A DNA stretch of 64,000 bases, from assembly GCA_949128115.1 (NCBI GenBank), contig OX421964.1, positions 21,724,892 to 21,788,891 on the forward strand, in the 5' to 3' direction. Both the position numbers and the translations under genes were made by a program. Origin of the DNA: Anaspis maculata. Lineage: Eukaryota > Arthropoda > Insecta > Coleoptera > Scraptiidae. Positions within the stretch are counted from its first letter, which is position 1. Each line of letters begins with the position of its first letter. The notes beneath the pieces are model-generated. The model did no database searches, was not told where the DNA came from, and worked only from the letters and a program-made list of their open reading frames with translations. Positions 3,258-63,410 of this stretch are shown here, in pieces.

Positions 3258-4918
3258 CTAATAGTACAGGAAAGATAGATTTCGACCTCGGAAAAAATAT
3301 GGACGTCCTGAAAATTTGATATTTCGTTCAGAATTGAGTGCTCTACAACATATCCAAAATCGCCAAAAATCGCACCCGGGGGTTTTGAGTTATTGGAGGG
3401 GGGGTAAAAAATTGCAGGTAAAAATGGAGGGGATGGAACTCGTCAATTTATTGGATGCGAATACATTATAGTTTGACGTATCATATCCCATTGATACCAT
3501 TTTGGCACAAAAAGTGTCCATCATTGTTGGAGGGGAGTAGTGGGGGGGTGAAGATCTGCTAGGTGGTCCATTTTGTTTTTCTGGACATGTAGAACCGATC
3601 ACGACAAGTTTGGTATCTTTTCCGACTAAATTCAATCTCCTGAACTCGTATCTGATGTGAAAATTTGGATGAAAACAAGTTTGAACAAGTTAACTTGAGA
3701 AAACTTGTTTTTTCTTTGACAATTTTGACGAATTTATGTTTTACTGTTGGAGGCGTTCATTTTTAGAAAATTTTCAGGGACCATTGAATTGAAGTGTATT
3801 CTCCACAAAAATCATCCACTCGATGTATAATTTTGTTTCTCGAGTTTAAAAAATCGATTTGAACTTGAGCCGGCGCGGCGGGTCGTCTACTACTGACCAG
3901 AACACTACAGCATGCATCTTCAAATGAAAACACCTCAAACTATTGAAGAAATAACAACTTATCTTTGAAAATTGGAGGATCTATGAAAAAATTAATTTCC
4001 TATAACATGAACAAAATCGCCGTGAATCGCACTGCAGAATTTTGAGTTATTTGAGTGGAGAGGTAACAGTTCATGGTGTATGAATCCTGTCAAAGTGTTA
4101 TCTTCCTCCTCGAATAACTCAAAATCCTGCATTGCGATTTATGGCGATTTTGTTCATGTTATAGGGAATTCAGTTCTGCACAAATCCTCCAATTTTCAAA
4201 GATAAGTTGTTATTTCTTCAATAGTTTGAGGTGTTTTCATTTAAAGGTGCATGCTGTAGTGTTCTGGTCAGTAGTAGACGACGCGCCGCGCCGGCTCTAG
4301 TTCAAATCGATTTTTTAAACTCGAGAAACAAAATTATATATCGAGTAGATGATTTTTGTGGAGAATACACTTCAATTTAATGGTCTCTGATTCTTTTTCA
4401 AAAATGAACACCCCCAACAGTGAAAAAAAAAGTCGTTAAAATTGTCAAAGAAAAAACTAGTTTTCTCAAGTTACCTTGTTCAAACTTGTTCTCATTCAAA
4501 ATTCACATTGGATACGAGTTCAGGAGATTGAATTTAGTCGGAAAAGATACCAAACTTCTCGTGATCGGTTCTACATGGCCAGAAAAACAAAATGAACCAC
4601 CTAGTAGAGCTTCGCCCCCCCACTACTCCCCTTCAACAATGATGGACACTTTTTGTGCCAAAATGGTATCAAGGGGATATGATACGTCGAACTATAATGT
4701 ATTCGCATCCAATGGATTGACGGGTTCCATCCCCTCTAATTTTACCTGCAATTTTTTACCCCCCCCTCCAATAACTCAAAACCCCCGAGTGCGATTTTTG
4801 GCGATTTTGGATATGTTGTAGAGCACTCAATTCTGAACAGAATATCAAATTTTCATGACGTCCATATTTATTCCGAGGTTTTGCCGATTTTTTTACTATT
4901 TTTCCTGCACTATAATGG
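3258..4918. mobile_element. Large palindrome A (foldback element)
   Basis: Left arm about 3258-4071 and right arm about 4095-4918 are reverse complements with few mismatches; the loop is about 23 bp. Landmarks: GACGTCCATAT at the outer ends, the C-rich block CCCCCCACTACTCCCC, and GAGTTATT near the centre. The two open frames in the arms (81 and 133 codons) are antiparallel copies of one non-coding sequence. No transposase is seen; a non-autonomous foldback element is inferred. Confidence 0.85.
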
Positions 4919-5404
4919 ATGGATAATTTAATATCCACCTAGGTTTTTGTTGTTTTGTGATTCCAATTCAAAATTTAAAAAGCCACCCAGTATATCTATC
5001 GCAGGTAGTTGGGATAAAATTTATTAGGTATTACTTTGAATACGTACTCTGTACTAATCTTTATAATTCCAAGCCCTTTCTCTATCAAAATGATAGCCTA
5101 GTTAGGACCTGAACCAGGCACTAGGCTGATTCCGCATTCCATAACCGTGTTCCTCAGCTTTCCAGCAGTTACATAATTCCAGAGAACTTGAGCCCTGTTG
5201 TAGATACTACACCCCTGCTTGCTGCCCCACGTTCTTGTTGCCCTGTCTACATACACGGCCTATGGCACATTGCGTGACATGGTGATGAAGCAATTAACGT
5301 CGCAGTATTTGTGTTTATTTCAACTTTAAATGAACTTTGTTATTGCTTCCTGTTTGCAATTTTAAACAGCCCTTTTCGCATGCCTACTAAACTACTGAGT
5401 AAGT
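4919..5404. other. Unique spacer
   Basis: No gene or repeat recognised. Confidence 0.4.
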
Positions 5405-5408
5405 TTTT

Positions 5409-5603
5409 TATTCTTTTTCTTGAAGTAACACCATAAAATTACTCCCTTGGCCAACTGGTTTCGCTGTTAGGCATCTTCAGGGTTGGGAATAGACATTTTG
5501 AGTTATTTAGGCAATCAGTGTCACTTCTCAACCCAGAAGATGCCTAACGGCGAAACCGGTTGGCCAAGGAAGTAATCTTGTGGTGCAACTTTTAGAAAAA
5601 GGA
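5409..5603. repeat. Hairpin / short inverted-repeat element
   Basis: Arms about 5409-5492 and 5537-5603 are inverted copies around TTGGCCAACTGGTTTCGC and GTTAGGCATCTTC, with a ~45-bp loop. Probably a MITE. Confidence 0.75.
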
Positions 5604-26929: not shown

Positions 26930-28450
26930 TTGCCACTTATAAACGTGAGCCAAGAAACATTCCGTCTTTAATATGCGCCGCCGACATGAAAAAACTGCTA
27001 AAAACCGCCCCCAATCACTTTAAAATGAAAAACATGAACCCGAAGACATAGCGATCTGATTCTTTCGGTATATAAATAGCTGACTAAAAATGGGAAAGGA
27101 TAGGCTACTTTTGGTTAGTCGCCGCCCCCAGATTCCGCCCCCAAACGATAAAAAGTGCAACTTTCACAAATGTTACTGATTGAGGTGTTCCCTTCAACAA
27201 TTAGGAACTGCCAACTCAAATTGTGCAACATTTGCTAAGCCGAACGCTGCCGCCCCCACACGCCGCCCCCAAAGTGAGAGATAAATGAAAAACATGAGCC
27301 CGAAGACATAGCGATCTAAGTTTTTTGCTATGTGGATAGCTGACTAAAAATGAAAAAGGATAGACTACTTTTGATATGGCGCCGCCTCCAGCTTCCGCCC
27401 CCAAAAGAAAAAAAGTGCAACTTTCAACAATTTTCACTGATTTAGCTGATAATGTTACCTCGTACATTCAGAAACTCTTGACTCAAACTGTGCAAGAATT
27501 TCTTTGCCAAACTCTGCCGCTCCCACACGCCGCCCCCAAAGTGAGAGATGAATGTAAAACATGAACCTGAAGACATAGCGATCTAATTCTTTCACTATAT
27601 TGATAGCTGACTAAAATTGGAAAAATATAGGCCACTTTTAATTAGCCGCCGCCTCCAGCTGCCGCCTCCAAACAAATGCAACTTTTACAATTTTCACTGA
27701 TTGTCATATTTCCCTTACATTCAGTAACTTCCAACTCAAACTGTGCAACAGTTACTTTGCGAGAATGCTGCCGCCCCCATACGCTGCCATCAAAGTGAGA
27801 CATGAATGAAAAACATAAACCCGAAGACATAATGATCTAATTCTTTCGCTATATAGATAGATAACTATGAATGGGAAAGAATAGGCTACTTTTGATATGA
27901 CGCCGCCTCCAACTTCCACCCCCAAAAGAAAAAAGTGCAACTTTCAATAATTTCCACGGATTTACATTTTAATGTTACCTCAAACATTCAGAAACTCCCA
28001 ACTCAAACTGTGGAAGAATTTCTTTGCCAAACCCTGCCGCTCCCACACGCCGCCCCCAAAGTAAGAGATAAATGTAAAACATAACCCTGAAGACATACCG
28101 ATCTAATTGTTCCGCTATATAAATAGCTGACTAAAAATGGGAAGAGATAGGCCACTTTTGATTAGTCGCCGCCTCCAGCTCCCGCCCCCCAAACAAAAAA
28201 AATGCAACTTTCACAATTCTCACTGATTGTCATAATTCCTTAAACATTTAGAAACTTCCAACTCAAACTGTGCAACAGTTACTTTGCCGAATGCTGCCAC
28301 CCCCACACGCTGCCCTCAAAGTAAGAGATAAATGGAAAACATAAACCCGAAGACATAGCGATCTAATTCTTTCGCTATATGGATAGCCGACTAAAAATGG
28401 GAAAGAATAGACTACTGTTGATTAGTCGCCGCTCCCAGCTCCCGCCCTCA
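26930..28450. repeat. ~260-bp tandem array (GAAGACATAGCGATCT units)
   Basis: The landmark GAAGACATA begins at 27042, 27302, 27569, 27823, 28089 and 28349, giving periods of 254-267 bp. Each unit carries CCGCCCCCA blocks, GTGCAACTTT and AGCTGACTAAAAATGG. Apparent open frames are not conserved between units. Confidence 0.9.
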
Positions 28451-28773
28451 AACAAAGAAATATTGATGAATGAAAGAATTTTCATTCAAATCTATTTCAT
28501 TGACAAGTACCCCATTCTGATAACAAAATACCACAATGAGTTTCGAATGAAGAAACTGGGCAAGGAATGGTGTTTCTCCTTCAACCAAATTTCTTTACGT
28601 TCACAATATGCCTCTTTCAGAAAATGCGCTACTGAGACTCACGCACGTGAAGGCATACTCACTTGTTTTGACCTCTGCCAAAGAATTTTATTTCAAGTGT
28701 GAAGAATGAATCGGACACAACGACAATTGATGAAAATATTTTCAATAGACCCGTAAGCTTCACTTATGACATA

Positions 28774-30557: not shown

Positions 30558-30969
30558 CAGTGGCGGATTTACTTATTTGGGGGCCCTGGGCGCGATGGAA
30601 TTTGGAGGCCCCCAAGGGGTGTCTGGGAAGGAGTGCGCCGCAGGCGGAGTCTTTCGCGGATAATGAAGTGTTTTTTGGTCAACAGTCGACATAAACCAGG
30701 TGATTGAAATTCAATTCCAAAGCAAATAAAAGTGAAAAAAAATTAAACTGATTTTTTTCTCAGTTTTGAGGGTCACCCAACCTTCGCATGGTGAAGTTCG
30801 AGTTTCAGACCCTTTCTCAAAGTGGCTGGCTGAAAGATCCCAAACAAAAAACCTCAAATTCACAAAAATGCTAAAAAAAAAACAGTTATCAAGCTGGGGC
30901 TCCTTCGATGCATTTTTTTAGGAGGCCCTAGGCGCGCGCCCACTGCGCACATGGGTGAATCCGCCACTG
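30558..30969. mobile_element. hAT-like MITE with 8-bp target duplication
   Basis: 412 bp with ends CAGTGGCGGATT and AATCCGCCACTG, flanked by CCTGCAGG at 30550-30557 and 30970-30977. The 8-bp duplication and CAGTGG-type ends are typical of the hAT superfamily. GGGGCCC-rich subterminal stretches are also inverted. No transposase is encoded. Removal restores the LINE frame. Confidence 0.9.
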
Positions 30970-31600
30970 CCTGCAGGAGCCCATGTGCGCAAAACCGAAC
31001 ATTCGACAAAAAGTCCTTTTTTGTGAAATCAAAAACCCTGTTATTGTGAGTAGTTGGACCCCAATCCTTAATACCATGAGATAATATGGAGTGAAAACTA
31101 GAGTAGTGAACATATATTAGATCATTCGCGTTTGAACTTTTTTCAAAGCTTGAGATGGCAAAAAATGATTTGTGTAGTCTGGCGCACACCCCGTCCACCT
31201 GTAGACTCCAATCCATTCGCCTGTGGCTTGCCAGTCTGCCATCAATTGGAATACCCAGGAACCTACAATTATCTGACAGCGGCAGCTCAGCACCATCAAA
31301 CCTGAGACCACCCCGCCACAGCCCCGTTTTGGCGGGCCCTGTAAACTCGACATAAATGATTTGCGGTAAGCGATTCTTTTCACACCAACTGGAAAATTCA
31401 CGAACTGCGCGAGTCACAAGACCAGTCAACTCATCCCCATCACGGCTTTCCACTAGAATGGTAGTATCATCAGCATACAAAAAATACCCTCTCCACCGAT
31501 ATATGCCCCGAAAGGTCATTGACGTATAACAGGAAAATCTGGGAACCCAACGTGCCTCCCTGAGGAGTACCGAGTTCAACGTCATATACTTCTGTGCTCA

Positions 31601-46167: not shown

Positions 46168-46809
46168 TTTTCACATAATTGGAAAAACTAAGTAACACTG
46201 AGTACACCGTGTGAAAAAAATTGCGTTTTTATCTTTCATTTTTGAGGAATAAATATTAAAGATGAATCAGAAACTGCGTATACAGCCTTTCAAGCAGCCA
46301 GACTAGACGATCAGCAAACTCATCGACATCATAATTATTTTGTGCTTACTTCACACTCAAGATCTACTTTTAGTACTAAAATGTAAAGTTAGATCCAGGT
46401 GACCGAAAAGGCAAGTTACTATCAATTCAATCAAATCAGATCGGGCCTTCTCTTCAACTTCTGTAGAGTCGGGCGAGTCTATAAAGAATCCATAGAATGA
46501 ATGAAAAAAAGAATCTTACCAAAAGTTTCAAATCTATGAAGTCTCTAATTTCTGGAATGCTAATACTAAGACGATTCGATAAGTTCAAATGTAGTGAAGT
46601 ATTGAGTAAGAGGAGTAAGTAGGTACTATTGTACATATATGAACTTGTATGTGCAAATTAAACGATCAACGAGACGTTTTACGACTTTACCGTGTAATTT
46701 CGAATCAGACACGGTCAGACGTAACGTGCCACGCTAATTAATATGAATTTCCTTATCTAAACTGTCTAAAAACGTGCCGAAAAGCTCTAACGCGTTCAAA
46801 AAATTTTAG

Positions 46810-46836
46810 TATAAATTCCAATGGACTCGAATCATT
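46810..46836 (+). promoter_or_regulatory. Core promoter of peptide gene copy 1
   Basis: TATAAAT at 46810-46816 is followed by a TCATT initiator-like motif at 46832-46836, about 24 bp downstream. The ATG is at 46866, giving a 5' UTR of roughly 30 nt. The same arrangement is conserved upstream of copy 2. Confidence 0.7.
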
Positions 46837-46865
46837 CCCCAACAAAAAACTACACAGCCAACAAA

Positions 46866-47509
46866 ATGACTTCTGGCAAGACTCTCTTGGTTGTGGCCGT
46901 AGTTGCCTCCGTGTTGATGCTCAACATTGTTGTTGGTAAATATTATTGCATATAGCCGCATATTTAGTCCATATTATTCCATATGATATGCATATTTAGC
47001 CAATATTCTGGCCATTCTATCTATCTGTGCTAGAAAATCACGATTTTTTTTTATTTGAAAAAAAAAAATTGAAAATTCTCAAAGAGAATTTTTTTTTCAA
47101 CTTTGATGATCAAAGCTAGTTGGTTGATTTTCCATGTAAATGTTCCAATTTTCAATATCTTTGCAGCATACTTATATCGCATATTCACTCACATATATTT
47201 TTTCACTTTTTGAGCTTTTGTCCAACATATAAATCCGCCCTCTAGATATGACTGGAAGAAAAATTATATAAAATATGTATTTTTTGGCAAAAAGATCGTT
47301 AGTAATAGAAACTTAATTTTCCAGACGCAGCTACTACACAACAAGTCAGCAAGGGGAAACCGAATCTTTTGGAGAAGGCTACAGCTAAATTGGCCACCCT
47401 GACGCCATTGTTGCCGTTAATCACCATTATGATGCCACTCATAGTTCCATTCATCTTGCCACTTTTGCCCGTCATCATTCCAGGAATGTTGATCTGGTTC
47501 CTTACATAA
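46866..47509 (+). CDS. Small secreted hydrophobic peptide gene, copy 1 (two exons)
   Basis: Exon 1 coding 46866-46935, intron 46936-47324 (GTAAAT donor, TTTTCCAG acceptor), exon 2 coding 47325-47509 ending in TAA. The product is 84 residues. Residues 1-5 are a short basic N-terminus, 6-23 a hydrophobic signal core, and cleavage probably follows Ala25 or Ala26 (V-x-A pattern). Residues 26-46 are a polar Thr/Gln/Lys linker. Residues 47-84 are almost wholly hydrophobic, with prolines at 51, 54, 61, 65, 69, 72 and 76, a single Trp near the end, and no cysteine. The intron is phase 1 and sits at the signal/mature boundary, a common layout for small secreted peptides. The ATG is in an insect-like CAAAATG context about 32 nt after the likely start site. 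A near-identical second copy lies 5.5 kb downstream. I do not recognise the family; secretion is well supported, function is unknown, and membrane activity is only an inference. Confidence 0.85.
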
Positions 47510-47560
47510 TTTATTTGAGTAGCCACTGCTGCAGTTCAATTATGAAATGATGACGGTACT

Positions 47561-47603
47561 AATAAATTACAAAAATTGAAAAATTGTGTTTGATTTTGTT
47601 ATG
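47561..47603 (+). terminator. Poly(A) signal of peptide gene copy 1
   Basis: AATAAA at 47561-47566, 52 nt after the stop codon, followed by a GT-rich stretch at 47584-47603 typical of a downstream element. Confidence 0.65.
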
Positions 47604-47795
47604 TTCACGATAAAATTCACCCTTCCTCTAGGAGATTCCCCTTTGAAATATTTTGAAAAACTAAAAACTTTTTCTTAACGGTTTTTTCCAGGGATCTTGA
47701 ATCGATTGTCTAAAACTCTGTGACTGCTACCGTAAACAGGGTGTGATATGTAATTTTTCAATTTTAAATGCAACATCCTATATTTTATTACGCCA
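47598..47795 (-). mobile_element. CAGGGTGT-type MITE just after peptide gene copy 1
   Basis: Reverse-complement copy of 17815-18010. Both share a CAGGGTGTGA-type end, TAGACAATCGATTCAAGATC and CACGATAAAATTCACC in mirrored order. It begins exactly where the duplication with copy 2 ends, so it marks or created that boundary. Confidence 0.6.
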
Positions 47796-47829
47796 TTTGA
47801 TGTAGTCTTTCTTTCTGATTGCAAAGATA

Positions 47830-50280
47830 ACTTTCAACATTAAAAACTTCGACTTCGAATACGGAAGATCTAACGAGGAAAGTTTCGCCTTTTTTCTTGT
47901 GATTTTAACTTAAAAACCGATAACTTTTGACTTCTGTTGCAAAATTTTGATTCAGACACGGAAAACTTTCATCAAAGCTCCGATATTTGACCTCGATAAC
48001 AAAATTTTGACTTCTACCGTAAAAAACTTCGACTGTCAATTATTATCCACATTTTGACTCCAACCACAAATTTCGCTTCAAGTAAATACAAAAAACTACG
48101 ACTTTTGACAAGAAAACTTCGACTTCGAACAAAAAATATTCTGACTATTACCACAAAAAACTTGAATTTTTTCTTCGCCATTGTGACTTTGAAGATGACA
48201 ATCTCCAATTTGATTATCAAAATTTCTATTCAGGGTACAAAATTTCGACTTCAAACACGAACGACTTCGATTTTGATCTTAACATTTCGACTTTGTTGCA
48301 AAATTTTGACTTGGAACAGGAAAAACTTGACTCAAGTCTCGAAAATTTGGCTCAAACACAAAATTTTCACTTCGAAGATGAAAACTTTGACTTTAACCTG
48401 GGGACTTCGACCTAAACACAAAAATTTAGACTTATGAAGCAGTAATTTGACAGTTATCTCTCTTTATATTCTTGAAATCATTTCAACACGTTCAAAATCA
48501 TTTCGTTAGTTTTGGAATTACATATCCAGAAATTTTTCAAACTATTGTTACGATATTTCGCGTACGGGTTCGAATATAATTGAGACAATTGTTTCAAACA
48601 CACACTGTTTATTACTGCGTACTACCACAATAAATAACGTCAACAGTTATCCACCTGGAATGATTTCGCAGGTACTTCGCTTGTTTCGCACTCGTTACCA
48701 CTTCGCATACCAATTCAATACTCCGCGAGCTGCCGGCTGATGCCTTATATAAGACCTCCGAACAGCGTTCTCGAGCTTCCTGTCTACTTCCAGCAAATTT
48801 CATAGTGCCTGGCATATGCGGTTTCTGGACCATTCCTGAATAATCACACACACCTTCCGCGTACTTTCCATGTGTTCTGGAATCTGCACCTCCGCCAAAG
48901 TGGACTGATGTGTCTTGATCGAACGTTGGAGTCTCCATTCAGTTTCACATACACGAACGCTCTGGAATGCACCAGATCGCTCTAGACTTCTACACTGCGA
49001 TCTAATGGATGTAAGGATCCAGAAAGATCGAGTGTTTACCAATATAAACGGGATGGCCGCTCGTAACACTATTTTGGCATTGAGCACGAAAGATGTAGCA
49101 CAAAAGACTTCGACTTCATCTCGAAACTTCGACTTCAAATACAGAAATTGTCATTTTGATCTAGAATTTTTGACTCGAAACAAAAAACTTTGACCACAAC
49201 TAGAAAATTTTCACTTCAAACATGGGAGTTCCGATTTTAATTTCGAAATGTTGTCTTTGAAAACAAAATTTTGACTACAAACACGAGAGATTTCAACTTT
49301 GATCTCAAAATTTTGACTTATGACTTGAAATTTCAATTTGAAATACAAAAAACTTCGACTTTGGGCACAAAAGATTCAACACAGGAAACTTTGATTCCAA
49401 TCTGGGAGTTTTGACCTCAGGTGCTAAAACCTTTACGTGCAACATGAAACTTCGACTTCAATATCGAATTATAGAGCATGGGATACAAAATTTCGACTTC
49501 AAACACGGAAAATTTTGGTCTGGATCTCGACTTGGAAAACGAAAAGCTTCTACTTCAATCTGGAAACCTCGACTTCGATTACTTCGAACACAAAAAAACT
49601 CCAAACTTTCAACTTTAAACTTCGACTAGAAAAACGACAAACAACTTTGACTTTCTTTTGCGGAAATTTGATTGTAAATACAAAGAACTTTGACTTTAAA
49701 CGAAGAAATTCTACTCCAAACAAGAATCTTCGATTTTTATTTCCAAATTTCGACTCCAGACGCAGAAACTTTCGACTTTTATCTCGAAAATCCGACTTTG
49801 AATACGGAAAACTTGACTTTGATCTCGATAAATAAACTTCAAACAAAAAAAAAACTTTGGCTTTTGACTTGAAATTTTGAGTTGGAAAACGGCAACTAAC
49901 TTCGACTCTAACTTCAAAAATGTGACTCCGAACATGGAAAACTCAGACTCCAAACATGAAAACATCTCTTCCAAACACACAAAAACTCTGACGTTTATCT
50001 CAAAATTTTATCTTTAAACTGACTTCTTCATTCTGACTTCATTCTGACATTGAACAAGAAAAACTTGACCTTAATCTTGAAAGTTTGACTCAATATACAC
50101 GAGATTTCGACTTTGAACGTGAAAATTTCGACTAACAAAAAAAAAGTTGACTTGCCCGACCCCGCGACTCTCAGGTCTCGAAACTTCTACCTAAACTACG
50201 GAATTTCGCTTCAAGGCACAAAAGATATTCAACTTTCAACATAAGAGGCTTTGTTTTCCACTCCAAAATTTGTACATGCT
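47830..50280. repeat. Degenerate 'cttcgac' minisatellite between the peptide genes
   Basis: The words ACTTCGACTTCGAACAC, AAAATTTTGACTT and AAAACTTTGACT recur every ~20-45 bp across the interval. Units are too diverged for a clean period. The array is broken by a solo LTR at 48546-49068. ORFs read through it on both strands are low-complexity by-products. Confidence 0.8.
48546..49068 (-). mobile_element. Solo LTR (gypsy-type) with 4-bp target duplication
   Basis: 523 bp with ends TGTTACGA (plus-strand left) and TCGTAACA (right), forming a perfect 8-bp terminal inverted repeat. It is flanked by CTAT at 48542-48545 and 49069-49072. On the minus strand it has a TATA-like CTTATATAAG at 48744-48753 and AATAAA at 48608-48613, the expected order for U3-R-U5. 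No internal retroelement coding lies next to it, so it is a solo LTR left by LTR-LTR recombination, inserted into the cttcgac minisatellite. Confidence 0.85.
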
Positions 50281-50896
50281 ATAAAAACATGAAATAGTAT
50301 ATTATAATACAAATTTTATAAGACATCGTATTGTCACTTGCGTGATTTTGAAGCTCGAGGAGCGAAGCGACGAGTGATTCAATTGACGAGTGTGACAATA
50401 GGTGTTATGAAACGTGTGTTATATACAATTTTTTCTATTTTGTAACTATTCCATGCTTTTTTCATTGAAAAAATGTAAAAAATGTGCCTCTGCTAACAAA
50501 ATTGTTGGGAATTGCTCCTGATGGTGAAAGCCCAGATTATCATCAGAAATGAGCCGTATTTTTCTGAAATAAACCCCTTCTGCGAAGTGATGTCACCTGA
50601 GCTGCCTCTGCTGTCAGTGAGTGCTGTCATGTCGATGCCATGTCCGCTGATATTGCCAACATTTGAAAGTAAAAAAAATGCGTATCGAAATGGACCTTCT
50701 TACGATACGCGAGTGACGTCATTTGCGTATCGCAATGACTCTGACTAATGATTGCTTCTTACTCATGAAGATGCAGTTTGCCGACACGAGCCTTGGCGAG
50801 TTGCGAGTAGAATACTATGCTTTATACAGTCTTATTGAAAAATGCAGTTATGTATGCGCGTGATAATGTGTTCATTATTAATTAGGATTGAATGAA
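50281..50896. other. Unassigned interval before duplication unit 2
   Basis: Contains repeated GCGTATCG/CGATACGC words around 50690-50735 and the inverted words CGACGAGTG and TTGCGTG near 50340-50400, suggesting a decayed MITE. A 78-codon open frame from 50512 has no recognisable family signature. No gene is called. Confidence 0.4.
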
Positions 50897-51286
50897 AATA
50901 TTTTTCTCACATAATTGAAAAAACGCTGTGCATTATAATATTCTCCTAGATATTTTCTAACACACTCAGTACACCGTGTGAAAAAAATTGAGTTCTAATC
51001 TTTCATTTTCAAGGAATAAATATCAAAGATGAATCAGAAACTGCACATACAGCCTGTTAAGCCGCCAGACTAGACGATCAGCAAACTTATCGACATAATA
51101 ATTATTTTGTGCTTACTTCACACTCGAGATCTACTTTTAGTACTGAAATGTGAAGTAAGATTTAGGTGACTGAAAAGGCAAGTTACTACCTATCAATTCA
51201 GTTGAATCAGATCGGGCATTTTCTTCAACTTCTGTAGAGTCGGGCGAGTCTATTATTAAGAATCCATAGAATAAATAAAAACAAGT

Positions 51287-51996
51287 GAGTATGCCTTCAC
51301 GTGCGTGAGTCTCAGTAGCGCATTTTCTCAAAGAGGCATATTGTTAACGTAAAGAAATTTGGTTGAAGGAGAAACACCATTCCTTGCCCACTTTCTTCAT
51401 TCGAAACTCATTGTGATATTGTGTTATCAGAATGGGGTACTTGCCAATGAAATAGATTTGAATGAAAATTCTTTCACTCATCAATATATTTTTTTGTTTG
51501 AGGGCGGGAGCTGGGAGCGGCGACTAATCAACAGTAGGTAGTCTATTCGTTCCCATTTTTAGTCGGCTATTCATATAGCGAAAGGATTAGATCGCTATGT
51601 CTTCGGGTTTATGTTTTACATTTTAAAGTGATTGGGGGCGGTTTTTATCAGTTTTTTCATGTCGGCGGCGCATACTAATGACGGAATGTTTCTTGGCTTA
51701 CGTTTATAAGTGGCAACTATCTATTATTAAAAAATTAAGAACACTAGAGCATCAGGTCTGGTAGAAAGTGCAATATTATGTTATTTCAAGTTTATCGGGG
51801 GCGGTTTTCTCTATGTTGGCGGCGCAATATAGACATCCAATATAGCCTAGCCCTCCTTTGGGAGTGGCAGCTATGTAACAGCGAAAAAATTAGAAAGCTA
51901 GGTCGTCTAGTTTGGGAGGAGTTCAAGGAACGAACGGACGGACGGACGGACAAAGCGGTTGCAATAGCGATTTTCATCAAGATGGAAAATGCGCTA
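51287..51996 (-). mobile_element. Non-autonomous element upstream of peptide gene copy 2
   Basis: Absent from the matching site of copy 1 (about 46510), so it inserted after the duplication or was lost from copy 1. It is the reverse complement of about 26633-28665: it shares the TCACGTGCGTGAG end, the TCGGCGGCG and GGGGGCGG stretches, the GGAC/GTCC microsatellite and the GCGCATTTTCCATC end. It carries only one of the ~260-bp repeats that are present about six times in the other copy. No coding capacity is seen. A-rich flanks prevent a firm target duplication call. Confidence 0.75.
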
Positions 51997-52298
51997 AAAA
52001 GACTTTTACCGGAAGTTTTAAATCTATGAAGTATTGAAGTCTCTGATTTCCAGAGTGCTAGTACTAAGACGATTCGATAAGTTCAAATGTAGTGAAGTAT
52101 TGAATAAGCGGAGTAAGTAGGTACTATTGTACTTTTATGAACTTGTATATGTGCAAATTGAACGATTAACGAGACGTTTTACGACTTTACCATGTAATTT
52201 CGAATCAGACGTAACGTTCCACGCTAATTAATATGAATTTTCTTATCTAAACTGTCTAAAAACGTGCCAAAAAGCTCTACGCGTTCGAAAAATTTCAG

Positions 52299-52328
52299 TA
52301 TAAATTCCAAAGGACTCGAATCAATCCA
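52299..52328 (+). promoter_or_regulatory. Core promoter of peptide gene copy 2
   Basis: TATAAAT at 52299-52305, the same distance (56 nt) from the ATG as in copy 1. The initiator region reads TCAAT rather than TCATT. About 300 bp of upstream sequence is shared with copy 1, and beyond that lies the TE insertion. Confidence 0.68.
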
Positions 52329-52355
52329 CAGCAAGAAAACTACACAGTCAACAAA

Positions 52356-53094
52356 ATGACTTCTGGCAAGACTCTCTTGGTTGTGGCCGTAGTTGCCTCC
52401 GTGTTGATGCTCAACATTGTTGTTGGTAAATATTATTGCATATAGCCGCATATTTAGTCCATACTATTCCATATTACTTTATATTCAGTCAATATTTAGG
52501 CCATTCTATCTATTATGTGCCAGAAAATAACGGTTTTGTCGTTTTAAGAAAGGAAAAAAATTTAAAATGTTTCAGAGAGTTTTTTTTTTCAACTTTGTGA
52601 TCAAAGCTAGTTGGTTGTCTTTACATGTAAAGGTTCCAATTTTCAACATATTTGCAGCATACTAACTTATATTGCATATTTACTCGCATATACATATTGC
52701 TCCGTTGCTTGAACATTTATTTTTTACGCATATTTTGATTCTTTTTGAGCGCATATAAACTGCGCTGCTATATGCATTTTCTACACATTTTATCGAACTT
52801 TTTTACCACATATAAATCCGCTCTCTAGATATGATTGGAAGAAAAATTATGAAAAATATGTATTTTTTTTGGCAAAAAGATCGTCGGTAATGGAAACTGA
52901 ATTTTTCAGACGCAGCTACTACACAACAAGTCAGCAAGGGCAAACCGAGCCTAATGGAGAAGGCTACAGCTAAATTGGCCACCCTGACGCCATTGTTGCC
53001 GTTAATCACCATTATGATGCCACTCATAGTTCCATTCATCTTGCCACTTTTGCCCGTCATCATTCCAGGAATGTTGATCTGGTTCCTTACATAA
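52356..53094 (+). CDS. Small secreted hydrophobic peptide gene, copy 2 (two exons)
   Basis: Exon 1 coding 52356-52425 is identical to copy 1. Intron 52426-52909 has the same donor and a TTTTTCAG acceptor and is ~95 bp longer than in copy 1, carrying extra CATAT-rich sequence. Exon 2 coding 52910-53094 ends in TAA. The 84-residue product differs from copy 1 at residue 37 (Ser for Asn) and residue 39 (Met for Leu); the signal peptide and the proline-spaced hydrophobic tail are unchanged. The introns differ far more than the exons, which suggests a recent duplication with constraint on the coding sequence, or gene conversion. The open frame, splice sites, TATA box and poly(A) signal are all intact, so both copies look functional. 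A ~710-bp TE sits about 300 bp upstream of its TATA box and could change its expression. Confidence 0.85.
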
Positions 53095-53159
53095 TTTATT
53101 TGAGTAGCCACTGCTGCAGTCCAATTGTGAAATGACGAGCAATTATTACTGACGGTACT

Positions 53160-53204
53160 AATAAATCACAAAGATTGGAAAATTGTGTTTGATTTTGTTA
53201 TGTA
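53160..53204 (+). terminator. Poly(A) signal of peptide gene copy 2
   Basis: AATAAA at 53160-53165 followed by the same GT-rich stretch as copy 1. Homology between the copies ends just after it, near 53204. Confidence 0.65.
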
Positions 53205-53518: not shown

Positions 53519-55560
53519 ACTAAACTGCTTGACAATTGAACTGCAACACCTAAAAATTAGGTGCGTTTTCAAATTGAGATAGCTCGAAAAATATTTGACG
53601 GATTCCAGAAATTCAGGCATGTGAGGAAAGGTCATTCCTTTGACTATCGAATGCTGGTATTGATGATAAGTTTGATTGCACAATTTGTCATATACAGGGT
53701 GCCAACGGAGAGCGTGCAGATATGGGCAATCTTTCACCTTGTACAACTTTCGAAAAACAAAATCGAGATTTTTTCTATCGCTTGCTTTTGAAAGGTTGAA
53801 TCATTACGCCGAAACGGTTTTGAAATTTTGACCCTAACTTTTTTTTTCAAAAAATTGTGCTCAATTTTCTGAAATATGCACTTTCTGATTAAGAAAAAGA
53901 AATAGACATTGTTTGTTTTCAAACGGATCCATATTGAATTTTCTTACGAAGATTTTCATTTGAGCCTCCACATCCCCTAGAAACTACCCCTTTTGGGACA
54001 CCGTCTCACAACAAGATATGCAATGCTTCATTTAAAAGGCATAAGGAAATTACTCATCAATAATTGGATTGAAATAAGGATACTGCGATGACCCCACACG
54101 TACAGCTCCCTAAAAACCACCCCTTGACTTCAAGGGACAGGGTTGGTATGATAAGACATGCAATATGTACATGAAAATTCCAAAAAACGTCTTTTTCAAT
54201 TGTTCCACTAAAAAAGTGATGCTACACGATGACCCTCTGCGTAGGTCATCCCAACAGTAGCTACCCTCTCGGAAAAAGAACTACCCTTTGAAAAACCAGT
54301 ACTTCCGCAATACCTCATTTGTTGGAGTTTTTTCAAAATCTTTAGCAATAGTTTGCCGCTACGATGATTTCATTCACATATCTACCCGAAACTACCCCTT
54401 CAACTACCCCTCCAATATCGCATAGCCTTTACCTTGAGGCGTGTAAGGTCATTGCGAAATCATTTTGAACTCAATCAATCGCACCTTCTCTGAGCTTCCA
54501 AATGAGGTATTGCATACTTTTCACCAAAGAGGCGATTTTAGGGGTAGTTTCAGGAAAGGTTTTGTACTATTATCGTAGAAAACACCATCATTTCAATGAA
54601 ACGGTTAGTAGGCAAAAGTTCTTTCAACTTGTAAATAACGCATCAAGGTAGAGGCTATGCGATATTGAAGGGGTAGTTGAAGGGGTAGTTTCGGGTAGAT
54701 AATGTGGATGAAATCATCGTAGCAGAAAACTATTGCGACAGATTTTAAAAACATCCTAACAAATGAGGTATTGCGGAAGTACTGGTTTTTTAGAGGGTAG
54801 TTCTTTTTTCGAGAGGGTAGCTACTGTTGGGATGACCTACGTGAAGGGTCATCGTGTAGCATCACTTTTTTAGTTGAACAGTTGAAAAAGACGTTTTTTG
54901 GAATCTTCATGTATTGCATGTTTTATCATACCAACCCTGTCCCTTGAATTCAAGGGGTGGTTTTTAGGGAGCTGTACGTGTGGGGTCATCGTGGTATACT
55001 TATTTCAATCCAATTATTGATGAGTACTTTTCTTAGGCCTTTTAAATGAAGCATTGCATATCTTGTTGTGAGACGGTGTCCCAAAAGAGGTAGTTTCTAG
55101 GGGATGTGGAGGCTCAAATGAAAATCTTCGTAATCAAATTCAATATGGACGCCGTTTGAAAACAAACAATGTCTCTATTTCTTTTTCTTAATCAAAAAGT
55201 GCATATTTCAGAAAATTGAGCACAATTTTTTGAAAAAAAAAGTTAGGGTCAAAATTCCAAAACCGTTTCGGCATAATGATTCAACCTTTCAAAAGCACGC
55301 GATAGAAAAAATCTCGGACTTTTTTTCGAAGGTTGTACAAGGTGAAAGATTGCCCATATCTTCACGCTCTCCGTTGGCACCCTGTATACGACAAATTGTG
55401 CGATCAAACTTATCATCAATCCCAGCACTCGATAGTCAAAGAAATGATCTTTCCTCACATGCCTGAATTTCTGGAATCCGTCAGATATTTTTTGAGCTAT
55501 CTCAATTTGAAAACGCACCTAATTTTTAGGTGTTGCAGTTCAATTGTCAAGCAGTTTAGT
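53519..55560. mobile_element. Large palindrome E (foldback element, ~2 kb)
   Basis: Left arm 53519-54440 and right arm about 54639-55560 are reverse complements (outer word AAACTGCTTGACAATTGAAC); the centre is ~200 bp. Each arm contains a CAGGGTGCCAACGGAGAG word (about 53695 and 55384) that looks like the end of an inner element. The two mirrored frames, 134 codons on minus and 79 on plus, encode the same residues because of the palindrome and are not genes. Confidence 0.88.
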
Positions 55561-60014: not shown

Positions 60015-63000
60015 TAAAGTTGAGGTGGGTGAGGGCAAAAGGGGGGTAATAAGAAATATTCATAATATTTTCCTCAACAAAAAAGATAATAATTTTGTTC
60101 AATTTGATGTAAGTACCACAAAGTAATGCCCGTTCACGTTGCAAATTCAGCACAAGAAATTTTTTAATCAAAAATAAAGTGAAAAGCTGGAAAGGTATAC
60201 GGCTGATGGGCCCTGATAGATTTGCGCCAAAACTTTGCAGGTCCCATCAGCCGTAGCCGTAGCCCTCTAACTTATCACTTTGTTTTTGATTCCAAAAGTT
60301 CTAGTGCTGAATTTGCAACCTGAAGAACAGCATATTATAGATGTTTCTACTTGAAATTGTAAAATAGAGGTCGGTGGGGGCAAAAGGGGAAAATTGAAAA
60401 ATTTTTGAATATTTTTCTCAGTACAATTCTCTTCTGATGTATCACAAGGTAGGTGGTTTCATTTGAAATTTTAAAGTAAAAGGGTGGGTAGGGACCAAAG
60501 GGGATGATTGATAATTTTTATATTTTTCTTGGAAAAAGAGTTCAATCCTCTCTAATCTGGTGAAACAAAAAGTACGTGTCAGTTATCATTTTTAGTTGGA
60601 ACTTAAAAGAGTGGATAGAGCAAAAGGGGGTTGATTAAAAAAAATTATAATATTTTTCTCACAAAGAAAATTTGATGTTTTCAATTTGATTTATCACAAA
60701 GTAAATTATCCTACATGAGTTTTTGAAGTAAGGGTGGGTGAAGACGAGAAGGGGTGATTAATATTCTTTATATTCTTCTCAGAAAGAGAATTCAATTCTC
60801 TTCAATCGGATGAACCGAGAAGTACGTGGTTTCATTTGAAAGCTAAGGGTGTTTGAATATTTTTTTCACAAAGAGAATTTGATGTTTTCAATTTGATGTA
60901 CCACAAAGTAGATAAGCCTACATGAATTTTTTCAAGTGGGTGTGGGGGGGGGGGGACAACAGGATGTGATAAATAAGTTTTATATTTTTCTCAGAAAGAG
61001 AATTCAATTCTCTTCAATCTGGTGAACCATGCAAAAGTACGTGGTTCCATTTGAAATTTGGAAATCAAGGGTGGGTGGGGCAAAAGAGGGGTTAATAGAA
61101 AAAAAATGTTTTTCTCACAAAGAGAATATGATTTTTTCTGATTGATGTATCGCAAAGTTCATTATTCTACATAAAATATTAAAGTGGGTGGGTGGGGACG
61201 AAAGAGAGTAATTATAAATTCTTATATTTTCATCAGAAAAAGAACTCAATCCTCTTCAATCTAGTGAACCGAAAGTACGTGGTTCCATTTGAAATTTAGA
61301 AGTTGAGTGTGGGTGGGCCAAAAAGGGGGTTGATCAAAAAAATTCATGATATTTTTCCCACAAATAAAATTTGATGTCTTCAATTTGATGTATCACGAAG
61401 TAGATTACTCTACATGAAATTTTAAATTAAGGGTGGGTGGGGACAGAAGGGGGTTATTACTAATTTTTATAATTTTTTCAGAAAGAGAGTTCAACCTGGG
61501 GAACCAAAAAGCACGTGATACCATTTGATATTTAGAATGTAAGGGTAGATGGGGCAAAAGGGGGGTTGATCAAAAAAATTTATAATATTTTTCTCATAAA
61601 GAGAATTTGATGTTTTCAATTTGCAATTTTCAGTTTTTTTCAATATACATGAAGTTTTTTAAGTAGGGGTGGGTGGGGACGACAGGGGGTGATTGATAAT
61701 TTTTATATTTTTCTCAGAAAGAGAATTCAAGACTCTTTAATCTGGTTAATCAGAAGTACGTGGTGCCATTCAAAATTTGGAAGTTAAGGGTGGGTGGGAC
61801 AAAAGGGGGGTTGAACAAAAAAAATTATAATATATTTCTCACAAAGAGAATTTGATGTCTTCAATTTGATGTATCACGAAATAGATAATTCTACATGGAA
61901 TTTTAAATTAGGGGGGGGTGGGGGCAAAAGGGGGTTATTAATAATTTTTATAATTTTCTCAGAAAGAGAGTTCAACCTGGGGAACCAAAAAGCACGTGAT
62001 ACCATTTGATATTTTGAATGTAAGGGTAGATGGGGCAAAAGGGGGGTTGATCAAAAAAATTTATAATATTTTTCTCACAAGGAGAATTTGATGTTTTCAA
62101 TTTGATGTACCACAAAGTAGTTCAATATACATGAAGTTTTTTAAGTAGGGGTGGGTGGGGACGACAGGGGGTGATTGATAATTTTTATATTTTTCTCAGA
62201 AATGGAATTCAAGACTTTTCAATCTGGTTAATCAGAAGTACGTGGTGCCATTTAAAATTTGGAAGTTGAGGGTGGGTGGGACAAAAGGGGGGTTGAACAA
62301 AAAAAATTATAATATATTTCTCACAAAGAGAATTTGATGTCTTCAATTTGATGTATCACGAAATAGATTATTCTACATGAAATTTTAAATTAGGGGGGGT
62401 GGGGGCAAAAGGGGGTCATTAATAATTTTCATAATTTTCTCAGAAAGAGAGTTCAACCTGGGGAACCAAAAAGCACGTGATACCATTTGATATTTTGAAT
62501 GTAAGGGTAGATGGGGCAAAAGGGGGGTTGATCAAAAAAATTTATAATATTTTTCTCACAAGGAGAATTTGATGTTTTCAATTTGATGTACCACAAAGTA
62601 GTTCAATATACATGAAGTTTTTTAAGTAGGGGTGGGTGGGGACGACAGGGGGTGATTGATAATTTTCATATTTTTCTCAGAAAGGGAATTCAAGACTTTT
62701 CAATCGGGTTAATCAGAAGTACGTGGTGCCATTTCAAATTTGGAAGTTGAGGGTGGGTGGGACAAAAGGGGGGTTGAACAAAAAAAATTATAATATTTTT
62801 CTCACAAAGAGAATTTGATGTCTTCAATTTGATGTATCACGAAATAGATTATTCTACATGAAATTTTAAATCAGGGGGGGCAAAAGGGGGTTATTACAAA
62901 TTTTTATAATTTTCTCAGAAAGAGTGTTCAACCTGGGGAACCAAAAAGCACGTGATACCATTTGATATTTTGAATGTAAGGGTAGATGGGGCAAAAGGGG

Positions 63001-63410
63001 GGTTGATCAAAAAAATTTATAATATTTTTCTCACAAAGAGAATTTGATGTTTTCAATTTGATGTACCACAAAGTAGATTAATATACATGAAATTTTATAA
63101 GTAGGGGTAGGGTGGGGACGACAGGGGGTGATTGATGATTTTTATATTTTTCTCAGAAAGAGAATTCAAGACTCTTCAATCTGGTTAATCAGAAGTACGT
63201 GGTGCCATTTGAAATTTGGAACTTAAGGGTGGGTGGGGCAAAAGGGGGGTTGAACAAAAAAAAAATTATAATATTTTTCTCACAAAGAGAATTTGATGTC
63301 TTCAATTTGACGTACTCAAAGCAGGTGATTATATTTGTCATTTTGAGAGGGGGTGAGTGGAGTCGAAGGGGGTGAGTGGGGACAAAGGGGGTACGTTTGG
63401 AAATATCTTT
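60015..63410. repeat. Satellite array with ~480-bp higher-order unit
   Basis: Basic units of ~110-125 bp alternate GGGTGGGTGGGGCAAAAGGGG and GGGTGGGGACGACAGGGGGTG types. From about 61400 four basic units form a higher-order repeat: AGAAGTACGTGGTG begins at 61752, 62234, 62715 and 63191 (periods 482, 481, 476), and CACGTGATACCATTTGATA follows the same spacing. The 60015-61400 part is older and less regular. Non-coding. Confidence 0.9.
60138..60322. repeat. Hairpin element with GGGCTACGGCTACGG motif, copy 2
   Basis: Arms GTTGCAAATTCAGCAC..AAAGTG and their reverse complement, with ATACGGCTGATGGGCC against GGTCCCATCAGCCGTAGCC near the centre. Shares the centre motif with 20022-20250. Sits at the start of the satellite. 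Confidence 0.65.

Follow-up and report, generated by a model that had tools for sequence, protein, structure and literature searches.

A four-copy, intron-split gene family in the beetle Anaspis maculata encodes leader-bearing peptides with a proline-phased, uncharged core

In this study, we found that the genome of the false flower beetle Anaspis maculata carries four intact copies of a two-exon gene with a common gene structure, a conserved promoter and a constrained coding frame. Two copies, genes A and B, lie in tandem on chromosome 4 in the window, the 64,000-nt stretch of DNA that was analysed. A genome-wide search located two further intact copies, genes C and D, on chromosome 5. In the precursors, a signal-like leader is followed by a rapidly changing linker and by a core of 39 residues that has no charged residues and carries phased prolines. 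The four copies almost certainly form a real coding gene family, because the gaps among their coding sequences are all in-frame (3, 6 or 9 nt) and a codon model rejects omega = 1.

Structure of genes A and B and their promoters

All features described here lie on the + strand. Gene A (46866-47509) has a 70-nt coding exon 1 (46866-46935; 23 codons and 1 nt, encoding the signal-like leader), a 389-nt GT-AG intron in phase 1 (46936-47324) and a 185-nt exon 2 that encodes the predicted mature peptide and the stop (47325-47509). Gene B (52356-53094) is built in the same way, with a 70-nt coding exon 1 (52356-52425), a 484-nt GT-AG intron in phase 1 (52426-52909) and a 185-nt exon 2 for the mature peptide and stop (52910-53094). 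Each gene encodes an 84-residue product, and the two products differ at two residues (N37S and L39M). The poly(A) signal AATAAA is found at 47561-47566 in gene A and at 53160-53165 in gene B. It is followed by a T/GT-rich element at 47584 and 53183, respectively, and TTGTGTTTGATTTT is common to both genes downstream of AATAAA. The sequence-only reading had described two complete two-exon genes with near-identical 84-residue products, 2 differing residues of 84, and conserved TATA boxes, splice sites and poly(A) signals. All of these were recovered, the gene coordinates exact to the base and TATAAA at 46810 and 52299. It had also held that the gene is hidden from ORF scanning. The spliced product was indeed missed by a stop-to-stop scan at 60 codons, but frames were listed for exon 2 of A (66 codons), exon 2 of B (67) and exon 1 of B (61). 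The open frame of gene A exon 1, at 46 codons, falls below that listing.

The promoter and 5' leader extend over 46677-46865 in gene A and 52177-52355 in gene B. Four elements, TTTTACGAC, CTAATTAA, CTTATCT and TATAAAT, occur in identical order upstream of all four genes; they start at 46677, 46734, 46752 and 46810 in gene A and at 52177, 52224, 52242 and 52299 in gene B. CTTATCT reads AGATAAG on the opposite strand, and we take it to be a GATA-type site. When the 210-bp promoter of gene D was searched against the genome, it matched only at the four family loci. Within 200 bp upstream of the ATG, 124 of 188 sites were invariant among the four copies, compared with 30/83 at -300 to -200. The promoter is only moderately above nearby non-coding sequence, since the 3' part of the intron also has 41 of 75 sites invariant.

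Four copies and constraint on the coding frame

Genes C and D have the intron phase, TATA box, poly(A) signal and approximately 200-bp promoter of genes A and B. The two loci are at C5:44875200-44875720 and C5:44879740-44880440 on chromosome 5. All four introns are GT-AG in phase 1 and follow 70 coding nt (A, B and C) or 76 (D). With the A and D proteins as queries, the coding part was found at four places with E < 1 in 758 Mb, and all other matches had E above 1. The earlier description as a tandem pair was thus correct for a real two-exon, leader-bearing gene in tandem but incomplete, as the genome holds four members. Among the weak matches, the sequence surrounding L017-L020 (E 1.25 to 6.7) was inspected in a single frame; by eye, L018 and L019 have one repeat-like sequence in common, and L017 and L020 resemble its opposite strand. 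L033 and L034 had E values of 1.96 and 5.95.

The divergence between A and B was counted at ungapped sites from 46530. Differences were found at 27 of 325 sites in the 5' flank, 0/70 in exon 1, 57/387 in the intron, 5/185 in exon 2 and 6/96 in the 3' flank. The coding differences comprise 3 synonymous and 2 replacement changes (Fisher p 0.10). Coding constraint, as suggested by the sequence-only reading, is not evident from the dN/dS of this pair by itself and emerges only with the chromosome 5 copies, whose addition settled the question of selection. The MG codon model for the four copies gave lnL -680.45 with omega free and -685.59 at omega = 1 (2dlnL 10.3, 1 df, p ~0.001), and the GY model lost 4.1 lnL when omega was fixed at 1 with kappa 2. 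Pairwise tests covered A/B, A/C, A/D and C/D. The A/D pair gave dS 0.497 and dN 0.151 by Nei-Gojobori (Fisher p 0.0003), and C/D gave p 0.018. Purifying selection was not evident from A/C alone (omega 0.59, Fisher p 0.20), and part of the family may therefore be relaxed.

Gene conversion between A and B had been offered as another explanation of their similarity. Two long identical runs of 166 and 115 nt, lengths reached in 0 of 5000 shuffles, hint at it. However, it is unproven because the shuffles ignore coding constraint and the divergence at fourfold sites (2/46) is not clearly lower than in the flanks.

The intron of gene A contains a dispersed repeat of approximately 310 bp, starting at intron position 5, which occurs at no fewer than 37 other places in the genome. 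The same repeat is present in the intron of gene B. The many-copy transposon family considered earlier as a refuting case thus applies to part of the intron but not to the coding part. A transposon origin was rejected for the coding part, which matched four genome places with E < 1, but is true of part of the introns of A and B.

Searches for relatives

A Pfam scan of A and B returned no family for A and one match for B at E 7.6, below its cut-off. Ten chosen frames of the 321 window frames of at least 60 codons gave one weak reverse transcriptase match in Pfam and nothing else. Across the window, Rfam gave no match at gathering scores, and a tRNA scan with the bacterial code found none. In a set of 5.8 billion proteins, A alone yielded 5 candidates, none at E <= 1, and the four-row alignment yielded 974, none at E <= 10. 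Profile matches in the PDB comprised 20 distinct sequences, all galectin-3 constructs. This likeness spans about 24 residues at E 0.29 to 7.9, below useful significance, and was taken as chance. Foldseek with a weak AlphaFold2 model gave two matches (E 9.2 and 10) and nothing useful. A text search of the literature, with figures and supplements outside its coverage, found none of four core strings in the papers covered. Excerpts of papers on hydrophobic peptides secreted by beetles, on the glands of Scraptiidae and on orphan genes did not name the family.

Within Pfam, the protein set and the literature searched, the family is thus undescribed, as claimed earlier. There is nevertheless close to an even chance that the family has already been recognised or annotated in other beetles, which is compatible with every other explanation considered below. 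Our genome search covered this beetle alone, the protein set may lack beetle proteins, and short fast-evolving genes escape detection. The failure of both A and the four-row alignment to match anything in the protein set, together with the result for the core strings, argues against it. Insects have families of small secreted proteins that are restricted to particular taxa, such as those of aphid bacteriocytes (PMC3574423). The Anaspis family resembles them in its putative secretory leader and in consisting of orphan genes with no recognisable relatives, and differs from them in its uncharged, proline-phased core.

The predicted product and its possible roles

VVDA is invariant in the leaders of all four products, and the putative cleavage site follows from the (-3,-1) rule, which calls for small residues at these positions. 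The putative leader ends in VVDA and spans residues 1-25 in A and B; its removal would leave about 58-61 residues, in which a short and variable linker of net positive charge precedes the core. The core is shared at 39/39 residues between A and B, 30/39 between A and C and 34/39 between A and D, and the linker at 18/20, 11/19 and 11/19, respectively. The predicted mature peptide has no cysteines and a net charge of +2 to +3 located in its N-terminal part.

Seven invariant prolines of the core lie on one helical face. At 100 degrees per residue, their mean resultant was 0.87 (p 0.0002 at that angle; p 0.021 for any angle from 60 to 180). This phasing counts as one independent pattern, common to all four products. 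Under random substitution of the core, the retention of all seven prolines had p 0.10 (C) and 0.20 (D) and is not itself significant. The absence of charged or amide residues and stops had p 0.04 (C) and 0.11 (D), and so few replacements had p 0.11 (C) and 0.02 (D).

Although the core is very hydrophobic, its 19-mers scored +1.8 or more on a residue-insertion scale with position-independent values. The best 19-mers scored +1.8 to +2.9, and -5.5 to -6.6 when proline was counted as alanine. Three of the leaders also lay above zero (+1.3 to +2.0 for A, B and C, against -1.0 for D), and absolute values are therefore no reliable test of export. An AlphaFold2 model of the exon-2 peptide, weak and based on two rows, placed helices at 15-25, 29-43 and 47-59 (mean pLDDT 71, pTM 0.31).

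We tentatively favour, at somewhat less than even probability, an exported peptide that interacts with lipids or membranes. The precursors would enter the secretory pathway and lose the leader, and we infer that a secretory gland exports the product, whose site of action would be membranes or the surface of lipids. The phased prolines would stop the hydrophobic core from anchoring in the membrane during export and still permit a kinked helical hairpin on lipid. The tissue, perhaps a posterior abdominal or reproductive gland, is a guess.

A small integral membrane protein, with the leader cleaved or kept as a first anchor and the core forming a helical hairpin in the membrane, is possible but clearly less likely. 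The core spans 39 residues without a charge, and the low-confidence model is hairpin-like, with two helices and a break. However, the seven prolines make every core 19-mer unfavourable on the insertion scale, and the fast-changing linker would better suit a secreted product.

A more specific proposal, rather unlikely as it stands, concerns tissue and is compatible with an exported lipid-interacting peptide. The genes might encode a reproductive or posterior-abdominal gland peptide controlled by the posterior Hox protein Abd-B, the insect counterpart of HoxA9. Insect accessory glands commonly express small, duplicated genes for secreted products. All four promoters carry TTTTACGAC at a position between -195 and -179 relative to the ATG, and TTTACGAC corresponds to the HoxA9 part of a selected HoxA9:Pbx site (PMC6532930). 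The regulatory clue is nevertheless a single 9-bp motif.

An antimicrobial or defensive peptide, which would combine a hydrophobic tail with a cationic helix at the N-terminus to act on membranes, is a special case of the exported peptide and appears improbable. The N-terminal charge, the hydrophobic tail, the small duplicated family and the putative GATA-type site in every promoter are consistent with such a role, whereas the lack of cysteines and of a meaningful Pfam match for A and B argues against it. Cecropins are linear insect antimicrobials. They resemble the Anaspis peptides, as do andropin and melittin, in having a leader, a small mature peptide, predicted helices and a positive N-terminal part, but the Anaspis core is far more hydrophobic, proline-rich and without charges, and no match was found.

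A bolder version of the exported-peptide reading, and a long shot, is a new structural class confined to Scraptiidae or neighbouring families of beetles. Invariant prolines at one helical turn would make an uncharged, hydrophobic 39-residue segment exportable; the translocon would release it rather than let it anchor, and it would then form a kinked helix that coats lipid or membranes. Least credible of all is that the copies are non-working relics of duplicated non-coding or transposable sequence, as the intron repeats might suggest, given the four intact copies with in-frame indels only, the codon-model test, the conserved promoter and poly(A) region, and the restriction of the coding part to four places.

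The published annotation of the Anaspis maculata genome used BRAKER2 in protein mode. This family would be a clean case of small intron-split genes that protein-guided annotation is expected to miss. Orphan families of secreted peptides are common, and the finding, though solid, is therefore no surprise when taken alone. It offers a testable idea, namely that periodic prolines determine whether such a peptide is exported or anchored. Should the product prove to be glandular or seminal, it would be a new component of beetle secretions.

Genes A and B and their copies on chromosome 5

The window is part of Anaspis maculata chromosome 4 (C4:21724892-21788891). The two tandem peptide genes in it, A and B, were rebuilt from sequence. 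Gene A has exon 1 at 46866-46935, an intron at 46936-47324, and exon 2 at 47325-47509; gene B has exon 1 at 52356-52425, an intron at 52426-52909, and exon 2 at 52910-53094. Their products are 84 residues each with 2 residue differences, and both genes have a TATA box and a poly(A) signal followed by a T/GT-rich downstream element. Rebuilding thus bore out the sequence-only reading, which had described two complete two-exon genes with common TATA boxes and poly(A) signals. A and B sit in a longer direct duplication (46195-46433 versus 50962-51200, 89%). The unit of B is lengthened by approximately 0.7 kb of inserted sequence, the spacing changing from 4771 to 5498 between the direct-repeat pairs D11 and D7.

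The product of A was searched in six frames against the whole genome (757,842,296 bases in 50 contigs). The A. maculata genome note (PMC11252652) gives a total of 757,844,310, which is 2,014 bases above the sequence searched here, in 49 scaffolds plus the mitochondrion. The search gave 11 rows. Four genes were hit in exon 2 (E 1.6e-30, 1.2e-29, 3.5e-20, and 9.5e-20), three of those four also in exon 1 (E 0.002, 0.004, and 0.38), and four rows had E > 1. The two further genes lie on one strand of chromosome 5 with starts 4.7 kb apart: C (C5:44875273-44875620; product 83 residues, intron 96 bases) and D (C5:44879954-44880339; product 88 residues, intron 119 bases). With the product of D, seven rows were obtained, comprising the same four exon 2 places, exon 1 of D, and two rows with E > 1.9. 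The proposed tandem arrangement was confirmed, but the pair is not the whole family, as C and D are intact on chromosome 5. It is nearly certain that A-D are a real four-copy, intron-split gene family, which would code for a hydrophobic peptide of exported type.

A dispersed repeat in the introns of A and B

When the DNA of A was searched against the genome, 42 rows were found, five of which were A, B, and C, and D was absent. At least 37 other places matched solely within query 127-454, which is the final bases of exon 1 plus the intron. The repeat (46940-47253 in A and 52430-52828 in B) is part of a dispersed element of approximately 0.5 kb, four copies of which (L005-L008) inter-align at 91-93% along some 450-520 bases. 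In both genes, the matching stretch opens at intron position 5, adjoining the 5' splice site. Neither C nor D has an intron long enough to contain the element. The likeliest history is that it inserted into the intron of the A/B ancestor after the split from C, which would explain the intron length differences between A/B and C/D. Membership in a transposable element family, raised earlier as a refuting case, thus holds for part of the intron but not for the coding part, where exon 2 was found in four places only at E < 1.

Other repeats were observed in the window. Between A and B, a degenerate short-period repeat of words like TTCGACTTC occupies 48000-50250, broken by eye at about 48460-49060. 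Tandem arrays lie at 60856-63314 (units 481/236 bases) and 27023-28452 (unit 260 bases), and about 51500-51640, also between A and B, looks by eye like the 260-base unit in opposite orientation. A long foldback-like inverted repeat, whose nested arms measure 212, 89, and 64 nt and show 91-95% complementarity, was found at 54077-55000 and may extend beyond, as the search region stopped at 55000. A 244-codon open frame on the minus strand at 30866-31597 weakly resembles a reverse transcriptase (RVT_1, E 0.088, under the cut-off).

Constraint, possible conversion, and promoter conservation

Nei-Gojobori analysis was run on all six pairs among A-D; Fisher tests were applied to A/B, A/C, A/D, and C/D. 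The dS and dN values were 0.049 and 0.011 for A/B (p 0.10), 0.219 and 0.129 for A/C (p 0.20), 0.497 and 0.151 for A/D (p 0.0003), 0.220 and 0.142 for B/C, 0.498 and 0.151 for B/D, and 0.436 and 0.191 for C/D (p 0.018). The A/B comparison, which is the dN/dS check suggested for the two copies, by itself proves nothing on constraint; the A/C comparison suggests relaxed constraint. In the four-gene MG codon model, lnL was -680.45 free versus -685.59 at omega 1, and in the GY model -675.43 free versus -679.55 when omega was set to 1 and kappa to 2. Variable sites at codon positions 1, 2, and 3 numbered 25, 13, and 29, each of 83, and all CDS gaps were 3, 6, or 9 long. All four genes are rows of the alignment, and gap columns were excluded from the counts.

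The near-identity of A and B had been attributed to coding constraint or gene conversion. Constraint is supported by the four-gene codon models, not by A/B alone. A and B differ at 27/325 sites in the 5' flank (from 46530), 0/70 in exon 1, 57/387 in the intron, 5/185 in exon 2, and 6/96 in the 3' flank. The longest identical runs at ungapped sites, 166 nt (47370-47535) and 115 nt (46859-46973), were equalled in 0 of 5000 shuffles. Because 38 nt of the 115-nt run are intronic and 26 nt of the 166-nt run are 3' UTR, conversion between A and B is plausible. However, the exons are constrained, and divergence at fourfold sites (2/46) is not clearly under the flank level.

Four-way invariant sites in 50-base bins upward from the ATG were 29/49, 32/49, 36/47, and 27/43; the stretch from -300 to -200 has 30/83, and the 3' intron part 41/75. 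The 200 bp upstream of the ATG are conserved across A-D, in moderate contrast to the intron. The 210-bp promoter of D matched four places in the genome, which were A, B, C, and D. Words common to the four promoters were TTTTACGAC (-195 to -179), CTAATTAA, CTTATCT, and TATAAAT. Of the sequences here, TTTACGAC may be a site for Abd-B, and CTTATCT may be a GATA site. In a published study, a selected HoxA9:Pbx site has TTTACGAC as its HoxA9 half (PMC6532930).

The predicted peptide

The hydrophobic, signal-like leader closes with VVDA, which is invariant and lies at residue 25 in A. After it, a mature part of 58-61 residues would remain, with a mean hydropathy of 0.94 to 1.24 and a net charge of +2 or +3. 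A variable linker containing the 3- and 9-nt gaps follows the leader, in which the 6-nt gap falls. The core has 39 residues, zero of them charged, and keeps prolines at 51, 54, 61, 65, 69, 72, and 76. All seven lie inside an 80-degree sector of the helical wheel, with p 0.0002 for a turn of 100 degrees per residue and p 0.021 over any angle from 60 to 180. When the core was randomly substituted at the observed numbers, all prolines were retained in 10% of trials for C and 20% for D, no charged residue, amide residue, or stop arose in 4% and 11%, and replacements were as few as observed in 11% and 2%; these trials are weak because there are so few differences.

No relative was found for A or B in Pfam, apart from a single chance match for B, and none for the family in the protein set searched. 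Matches in PDB were taken as chance, and none of four ten-residue core strings was printed in any paper covered by the literature text search. No name for the family was found in these four sources.

On an insertion scale, the best core 19-mer scored +1.8 to +2.9, and treating Pro as Ala brought it to -5.5 to -6.6. The scale is crude, as it places the A, B, and C leaders above zero too. The prolines would shift the core from anchor to passenger. A structure model from the two window sequences gave three helices (mean pLDDT 71, pTM 0.31), which supports helix but not any fold. As a reasoned guess, the peptide most likely acts at lipid surfaces.
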